DNA of 64,000 bases from Chitinophagales bacterium. Its GTDB lineage: Bacteria; Bacteroidota; Bacteroidia; Chitinophagales; UBA10324. Within the stretch, counting starts at the first letter, position 1, and every line of letters begins with the position of its first letter. The DNA is taken from NCBI GenBank assembly GCA_013816805.1, contig JACDDS010000008.1, forward strand, positions 62,001-126,000, in the 5' to 3' direction. The position numbers and the translations under genes were made by a program. Shown one piece after another: positions 17,405 to 20,302 of the stretch. The notes beneath the pieces are model-generated. The model searched no databases. It was not told the DNA's origin and saw nothing but the letters and a program-made list of their open reading frames with translations.

Positions 17405-20302
17405 ATGAAAAAAAATGAACCGGCTTCGTCATTTGAAGAGATATCCCGCCTTGAGCCTTCCGGCATTATTGTAATAGGAGCCTCTGCCGGTGGTCTCAAT
17501 GCTTTCAACGAGCTGGTTTCCCAATTCCAAAATGATTGGAATGCTTTCGATTTACGAAACCTTATTCATAAAGTTCATAATTCAAAGCAGCCAGCAAAGA
17601 AATCCGGACTCGAAATCAATCACAATGGAAGCACCCACCAGGTTTCTATAGAGGCAATCCCCATTACCTCATCCGATGAAGGAGAAATATTGCTCGTGGT
17701 GTTTGACGAAACTGGACCATCCATTCCCACCGCAATTGACGCTTCTTTCGCAAAAGATAAACTAGTGCAACAGTTGCGCACTGTAATAGATGCCTTTAAA
17801 CAAGATATGGCTTCCATAGTAGAAACGCTCGAAGTAAGCAATGAGGAGCTGCAGTCCGCCAGTGAGGAAGTGGTATCCAGTAATGAAGAGCTGCAAAGTA
17901 TTAATGAAGAGATGGAAACCAGTAAAGAAGAAATTGAAAGTACCAATGAGGAGCTGTTGACCATGAACCATGAATTACAGGTGCGGAACGATCAACTGGC
18001 AGAGTCCTACGATTATTCCGAAGCTGTTATTGCAACCATCAGAGAATCCGTGCTTGTGCTCGATAGCCATTTCCGAATTAGAAATGCAAACCGTGCATTT
18101 TACAAGACATTTCAGGTAAAGGAGGCCGAAACAGAGGAAGTAGTATTGTATGATCTTCAAAATGGTGAGTGGAACATACCAGATTTGCATGAGCTTCTGG
18201 AGGGATTACTTCCCCGAAACAGCCATATTCAGGGTTACAGAATAAAACACGTTTTCTCCCGGATCGGCGAAAAGATAATGGTTCTAAATGTGCGGAAAAT
18301 CGTGCAAAAAATTCATCGACAGGAATACATATTGATTGCGATAGAAGACATCACCGAACATGAAACGGCACAGCAGATCATTGCAGAACGGGAAGAATGG
18401 TTCCGCAATATGGCGAACAATGCACCGGTAATGATATGGGTATCGCAGCCGGATAAAAAACGAACATTTCTGAACCGAACCTGGCTAGAGTTTACAGGGC
18501 GTAAAATGGAAGAAGAAATAGGTGACGGCTGGATGGAAAATATTCATAAAGATGATGTAGGGCAATATCTTGAAATCTATAATGCCAGCATGGAAAAGCA
18601 GCAACCTTTTGAGGCGGAATACCGGCTTCGCCACCATGATGGTGAATACCGCTGGGTAAAGGTTCATGCAAAGCCAACTTATTCGGTAAATAATACTTAT
18701 GTAGGGTACGTAGGCAGTGTTCTGGATATACAGGATCAGAAAGATGCAGAGTATTCTTTAAAAGAGGCTGCAGACAGGGTGGAGGAAATTTTGGGATCAC
18801 TGCCGCATATGGCCTGGATGGCAGATACAAATGGAAAATTGATATTCGTAAATAAAGGGTATACGGCCTTTACCGGCCTCACCTTAATGCAGGTGCAATC
18901 CCAGAGCAGATCGGATTTGATTCATCCTGATGATGTTGAAGCAGCATACAAGCTGAGAGACAAGCATTTTAAAGAAGGCACCCCGTATGATTTTAAGGTA
19001 AGGTATAAACGGAAAGAGGATGGAATGTACCGCTGGCACCTGGTACGGGCGGTTCCGTTAAAGGACAATGGTGGAAAGATTACTGCCTGGGTAGGAACCA
19101 ACACAGATATTCATGACGAGCAATCATTGAATGAGTTACTTCTTGAATCCACAGAAAAGCTTCGTGCAGCTCTGGATGGATTGCCGCAAATGGCCTGGAT
19201 AACGGATGAGAAAGGGAATTTACATTTTGTAAATAAAGGATACAGTCTGTATACAGGACAGAATGAAAACGAAGTCATATCATTTGATCACGATAGCATC
19301 CATGCGGAGGATTCTAAAAAGTTTTTGTCAAAATGGAGGCAACATTTAAAAAGCGGTGAACCCATTGAATTGGAGGTTCGCTATAAGCGGGCCAGCGATG
19401 GAATGTACCGTTGGCACCTGTTGCGTGCAACGGCAATTAAAAATGCGAAAGGTAACATTACCTCCTGGGTAGGCACCAATACGGACATCCATGAGCAAAA
19501 AATGTTTTTTGGAGAACTGGAGCGCAGGGTGCAACAACGAACCTACGAGCTTCAGGAAGCTAATGTCAATCTTGAGCGCTCCAATAACGAGCTCGAGCAG
19601 TTTGCCTACGTGGCCAGCCACGACCTGCAGGAACCTTTACGAAAAATTCTCACCTTCAGCGACCGCCTGCAAGAGCGTTTTTATGAAGTGTTGCCGCCGG
19701 ACGCCAAGGGATATATTGATAAGATAGCTACCAGTGCCGATCGCATGACCAAGCTGATCGACGACCTGCTTAATTTTTCAAGGGCATCCGCCATCAATAC
19801 AGGTTATGAGCCCGTTGATTTAAATAAAACCCTTGAAAATGTATTGAAGGATTTTGATGTTACTATCGGGAATAAAAATGCAAAGATAAACTGCGAGCGG
19901 CTTCCCGTTATCGAGGCAATACCCGTTCAAATGGTGCAGCTTTTTCATAACCTGCTGAGCAATGCACTTAAGTTCGTTTATGCTGAAAGGCCTCCGGAAA
20001 TTTTTATTAGTGCACAAAATTTTGACAGCAAAGAATTGATCAATCCGGGCTCATTAAATCATCAAACGGAATATTGTGAAATAGTGGTAAGAGACAATGG
20101 CATTGGCTTTCATTCAGCTTACGCTGATCAGATCTTTATCATTTTTCAGCGCCTGAATGAAAATAAAAATTATCCGGGAACCGGTATAGGGCTGGCGTTA
20201 TGCCGGAAGATTGTAAGCAACCATGGTGGAAAAATTTATGCTGAATCGCGTGAGAAAGAAGGTTCTTCATTCCACGTAATATTGCCGTTGAAGCAATCAT
20301 AA
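17405..20302 (+). CDS. Multi-PAS sensor histidine kinase with a deleted CheB-CheR front
   Basis: 965 residues, no signal peptide or membrane segment. Residues 20-41 (GIIVIGASAGGLNAFNELV) are the start of a CheB methylesterase domain including its nucleophile-type Ser27. At about 42-48 the sequence jumps to the region that normally follows a CheR methyltransferase domain (FDLRNLIHKVH, then EINHNGSTHQVSIEAIPI). A coiled coil of EELQS/NEEL heptads follows (145-205), then a degenerate PAS, three PAS/PAC modules (about 325-450, 455-580, 580-705), HisKA with FAYVASHDLQEP (His739) and a HATPase with VVRDNGIGF and GTGIGLALCRKIV. It is thus a cytoplasmic kinase of the CheB-CheR-PAS group from which the CheB body and all of CheR are missing, in frame. 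The divergent receiver protein is the likely partner. Confidence 0.88.
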   Translation: MKKNEPASSFEEISRLEPSGIIVIGASAGGLNAFNELVSQFQNDWNAFDLRNLIHKVHNSKQPAKKSGLEINHNGSTHQVSIEAIPITSSDEGEILLVVFDETGPSIPTAIDASFAKDKLVQQLRTVIDAFKQDMASIVETLEVSNEELQSASEEVVSSNEELQSINEEMETSKEEIESTNEELLTMNHELQVRNDQLAESYDYSEAVIATIRESVLVLDSHFRIRNANRAFYKTFQVKEAETEEVVLYDLQNGEWNIPDLHELLEGLLPRNSHIQGYRIKHVFSRIGEKIMVLNVRKIVQKIHRQEYILIAIEDITEHETAQQIIAEREEWFRNMANNAPVMIWVSQPDKKRTFLNRTWLEFTGRKMEEEIGDGWMENIHKDDVGQYLEIYNASMEKQQPFEAEYRLRHHDGEYRWVKVHAKPTYSVNNTYVGYVGSVLDIQDQKDAEYSLKEAADRVEEILGSLPHMAWMADTNGKLIFVNKGYTAFTGLTLMQVQSQSRSDLIHPDDVEAAYKLRDKHFKEGTPYDFKVRYKRKEDGMYRWHLVRAVPLKDNGGKITAWVGTNTDIHDEQSLNELLLESTEKLRAALDGLPQMAWITDEKGNLHFVNKGYSLYTGQNENEVISFDHDSIHAEDSKKFLSKWRQHLKSGEPIELEVRYKRASDGMYRWHLLRATAIKNAKGNITSWVGTNTDIHEQKMFFGELERRVQQRTYELQEANVNLERSNNELEQFAYVASHDLQEPLRKILTFSDRLQERFYEVLPPDAKGYIDKIATSADRMTKLIDDLLNFSRASAINTGYEPVDLNKTLENVLKDFDVTIGNKNAKINCERLPVIEAIPVQMVQLFHNLLSNALKFVYAERPPEIFISAQNFDSKELINPGSLNHQTEYCEIVVRDNGIGFHSAYADQIFIIFQRLNENKNYPGTGIGLALCRKIVSNHGGKIYAESREKEGSSFHVILPLKQS

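Follow-up and report, generated by a model that had tools for sequence, protein, structure and literature searches.

How does a PAS histidine kinase come to begin with the first residues of a CheB methylesterase, followed directly by the segment that elsewhere lies behind CheR? The gene in question is part of a stretch of 64,000 nucleotides (the window) from a Chitinophagales bacterium, G000, which is the sole genome of its genus in the comparison. The PAS, HisKA and HATPase_c domains of the encoded protein all exceed their Pfam cut-offs, and the kinase boxes (His739, N, G1, F and G2) are intact, as is Asp60 of the divergently encoded receiver (Table 1). A transmembrane segment is not evident in the remaining PAS kinase, and CheR has no match in the protein.

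Table 1. Position of the kinase gene, its parts and the neighbouring receiver gene in the window.
Feature	Position (nt)	Strand	Basis
965-aa PAS histidine kinase with vestigial CheB start	17405..20302	+	ORF, Pfam
CheB vestige (first strand, GASAGG loop, first helix), residues 21–46	17465..17542	+	Pfam, profile (32.9 bits)
Deletion junction, codons 46/47	17542..17543	+	Comparison with intact relatives
C-terminal half (long helix and three strands) of the post-CheR PAS domain, residues 47–103	17543..17713	+	Alignment, structure predictions
Glu-rich EELQS coiled coil, residues 113–209	17741..18031	+	Conserved Glu positions, model
PAS domain run, residues about 215–699	18047..19501	+	Pfam
HisKA domain, phospho-acceptor His739	19592..19789	+	Pfam, motif
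HATPase_c domain with N, G1, F and G2 boxes	19922..20293	+	Pfam, motifs
Divergent single-domain receiver, 144 aa, presumed phospho-acceptor Asp60	16779..17213	-	Pfam, motif, synteny

The origin of the N-terminus was addressed by profile comparison. Residues 22–47 align with positions 1–26 of the 174 positions of the Pfam CheB profile, a match that stays below the cut-off with an E-value of 0.0029 on a 202-aa piece. These 26 positions are all that remains, and the CheB catalytic domain is absent. With a profile of the CheB start built from the intact relatives, residues 1–47 reach 32.9 bits, while the best of 20,000 shuffled sequences reaches 10.8 bits. This bears out the original prediction of a first CheB strand and GASAGG loop at the start of the protein. 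A shorter CheB profile yields 31.3 bits, compared with 9.2 bits for the best shuffle. The CheB start reads IVAIGASAGGLEAVTELLKNLSPDTGMAFV in the intact relatives and IIVIGASAGGLNAFNELVSQFQNDWNAF at the same place in the window protein. The structure model of residues 1–210 (pTM 0.34) is poor over this stub, with a pLDDT of 31–51 for residues 1–40.

From residue 47 onward, the protein matches the post-CheR segment of its relatives with up to 53–55% identity, the segment reading AFDLRNLIHKVHNSKQPAKKSGLEI in the window and IFELRNTIHKVSRSGERMKRAGLEI in the relative L015. The switch at this residue agrees with the earlier proposal that the post-CheR segment follows the CheB start directly and in frame. 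Alignment with intact relatives maps the junction to nt 17542/17543, a position that is accurate to a residue or two and lies inside the range of nt 17525–17545 proposed before. The size of the loss had been put at about 450–500 residues; instead, 524–545 residues (about 1.6 kb) separate the two break points in 24 of the 25 intact relatives. In the 25th the distance is 563 residues, where the pattern probably picked a wrong anchor. L015, L056 and L058 carry full CheB, CheR_N and CheR between the break points. Lost from the window gene are the body of CheB, the whole CheR domain and the N-terminal half of the post-CheR PAS domain. In L015, the intact post-CheR segment is predicted to adopt a PAS fold (pTM 0.76) and matches solved PAS domains, and structure predictions indicate that only the long helix and the last three strands of this fold are retained in the window protein. 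Because the PAS front half is among the lost parts, the retained piece is half a PAS fold. The former description as the segment after CheR thus holds for its match to the relatives from residue 47, but not for an intact module.

A 6-bp repeat, GCTTTC, is found at the two break positions in L058, L139 and L060. A microhomology-driven deletion at this repeat was an attractive candidate and was dropped, as the homology of the window DNA beyond codon 44 to CheB does not reach significance (P = 0.27 for the best value and 0.09 for the mean). For this reason, no deletion mechanism is claimed.

In a tree of residues 47–320, the window kinase groups with L055 and L015 (98/86). Both of these nearest relatives carry CheB and CheR, which lie in one frame in L015, a 1246-aa protein from a Niastella MAG. 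A divergent single-receiver gene, 46–57% identical to that of the window, adjoins the fusion in L015, L055, L056, L136, L137, L138 and L142, and the fusion genes beside these receivers are intact or near-intact. Since its neighbours in the tree bear the enzymes and the receiver neighbour is shared, the deletion most likely took place in situ at the old locus. Tree and receiver synteny support the view that the window kinase descends from a CheB-CheR-PAS-HK fusion at the same locus. An in-frame loss from such an ancestor was part of the original prediction and is also in line with the missing lengths, and the predicted pairing with the divergent receiver gains support from the conservation of this neighbour among the relatives. 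L055 itself (1822–5700 of the locus, genome G392) is broken between CheR_N and CheR into a 298-aa and then a 985-aa frame, probably by a frameshift.

The locus is very probably the product of a natural deletion of about 1.6 kb that occurred in place, preserved the frame and gave rise to a cytosolic PAS kinase with a receiver as its partner. Comparison with the intact relatives shows that codon 46, in the first helix of CheB, is now joined to the point at which the long helix of the post-CheR PAS domain begins. The intact motifs and the conserved synteny suggest a route in which the PAS domains may detect a cue in the cytosol, the EELQS coiled coil may relay the signal, and His739 would be phosphorylated and would hand its phosphate to Asp60 of the receiver. 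The remnants of CheB and of the post-CheR PAS domain probably do no more than cap the coiled coil structurally. The methylation/demethylation branch is gone from the whole genome. In its half PAS domain, EELQS coiled coil, PAS run, HisKA-HATPase core and divergent receiver, the window system resembles Bacteroidota CheB-CheR-PAS-HisKA-HATPase fusions such as L015, from which it differs in having neither the CheB body nor CheR and only the rear half of the first PAS domain. Its remaining working parts are those of multi-PAS sensor histidine kinases, which, in contrast, have neither an N-terminal CheB vestige nor a truncated PAS domain.

It is improbable that the gene is instead in decay, with the fusion disappearing and a kinase that has ceased to matter. 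Other members of the family are indeed broken or split, such as the interrupted L055 and L129 with its three frames, and the gene of G836 has several deletions. However, the 919 codons downstream of the window junction are open, every kinase box is intact, all 16 conserved Glu positions of the coiled coil are kept, and the receiver is undamaged. Marginally less probable still is an assembly artefact, in which the genome holds the full gene and the assembler lost 1.6 kb. The genome is assembled in 31 contigs, which favours this explanation, whereas an in-frame junction followed by so long an open frame and the occurrence of similar enzyme losses in other genomes speak against it, as does the finding that the CheB and CheR profiles match nothing anywhere in G000. 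A degenerate PAS front half as the identity of residues 21–46, the only other plausible source and the placement given by a global MAFFT alignment with full-length relatives, is refuted by the profile scores and can practically be dismissed, given that a profile of this front half yields -1.2 bits, equalled or beaten by 5,594 shuffles, versus the 32.9 bits for CheB.

The deletion in the window gene was placed in a wider context by about 1,670 genome searches in samples of relatives, of the family, order, class and phylum, and of f21, the family of G392, with some genomes drawn twice or more. For weaker matches outside the fetched loci, the assessment was based on the length of the frame and the start of the match alone. 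No second copy of the CheB/post-CheR junction was found in these searches. With the junction found in one genome only, the earlier option of a new stable architecture is not supported. CheR lies in the same frame in 120 of the 136 loci examined, some of which represent the same gene fetched twice. Apart from contig edges, split frames and kinases whose match is confined to the PAS region, the remaining loci are the window itself and two genuine relatives without the enzymes.

The first of these, in G836 (L131), is a 646-aa kinase that starts with TPFPVVIIDAALDGLEAI, then IVPPDKENVTLNSQLRLTLR. These two CheB pieces, which occur in order, score 12.8 bits, compared with 9.0 bits for the best shuffle. 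This is suggestive of a PAS kinase that keeps an eroded CheB start after a parallel loss of the enzymes. The second, in G744 (L144), is a 609-aa kinase that begins at the coiled coil and consists only of coiled coil, PAS and kinase parts. Both resemble the window kinase in having lost the two enzymes and retained these parts, and differ from it in their break points and in the CheB start, which is apparently eroded in G836 and missing in G744. As the break points differ, the three cases are regarded as independent losses. No description of CheB-CheR-PAS-HK proteins with lost enzymes was found in the literature covered, which excludes most subscription papers.

Further variants of the family were observed. 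A group of f21 genomes encodes CheB in an ORF of its own, upstream of a CheR-PAS-HK protein, as read in L071; the frames of L052–L054 start similarly. L128 (2029–4596, G1017) encodes a CheB-CheR-PAS protein without any histidine kinase, which is the reverse loss. In L129 (2139–6762, G818), the fusion is split over three overlapping frames. L072 (3165–4892, G045) contains a 576-aa PAS protein that runs from the post-CheR segment on, has no kinase domain and is encoded directly downstream of a CheB-CheR fusion.

Regarding chemoreceptors, MCPsignal has no match in G000. Among 18 related genomes, one shows a sub-threshold match, and an MCP above the cut-off is found in none. It is therefore unlikely that the full fusion serves classical chemotaxis. 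The original prediction of a chemotaxis-type methylation regulator is thus doubtful, and "chemotaxis regulator" appears to be a poor name for an ancestor whose full-length counterparts, like the window kinase, occur in genomes without clear MCPs. The complete set of conserved Glu positions persists in a genome devoid of CheB and CheR, so these residues need not be methyl acceptors to be retained. As an indication of Glu retention without a role in methylation this is weak, coming from one protein of uncertain age. In the literature covered, no paper was found on what CheB-CheR-PAS kinases methylate.

CheB-CheR-PAS kinases are widespread in the sampled Bacteroidota, in genomes without clear chemoreceptors. 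Tentatively, the methylation enzymes could be a dispensable module of this kinase family, which would have shed them on several independent occasions and retained kinase and receiver. If this is true, the conservation of the Glu-rich coiled coil would reflect signal relay rather than methyl acceptance. With both enzymes lost, the partner and sensor parts intact and the kinase apparently functional, the window gene is a rare case in nature for testing whether the enzymes are needed and what they contribute. The gene further illustrates one route of domain loss in large signalling proteins, namely an in-frame deletion with a legible scar.

Just downstream of the receiver gene, at 16480–16692 of the window, a 105-bp unit occurs twice in tandem (85% match). 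This repeat overlaps a doubtful TTG-initiated ORF at 16315–16767 on the reverse strand.
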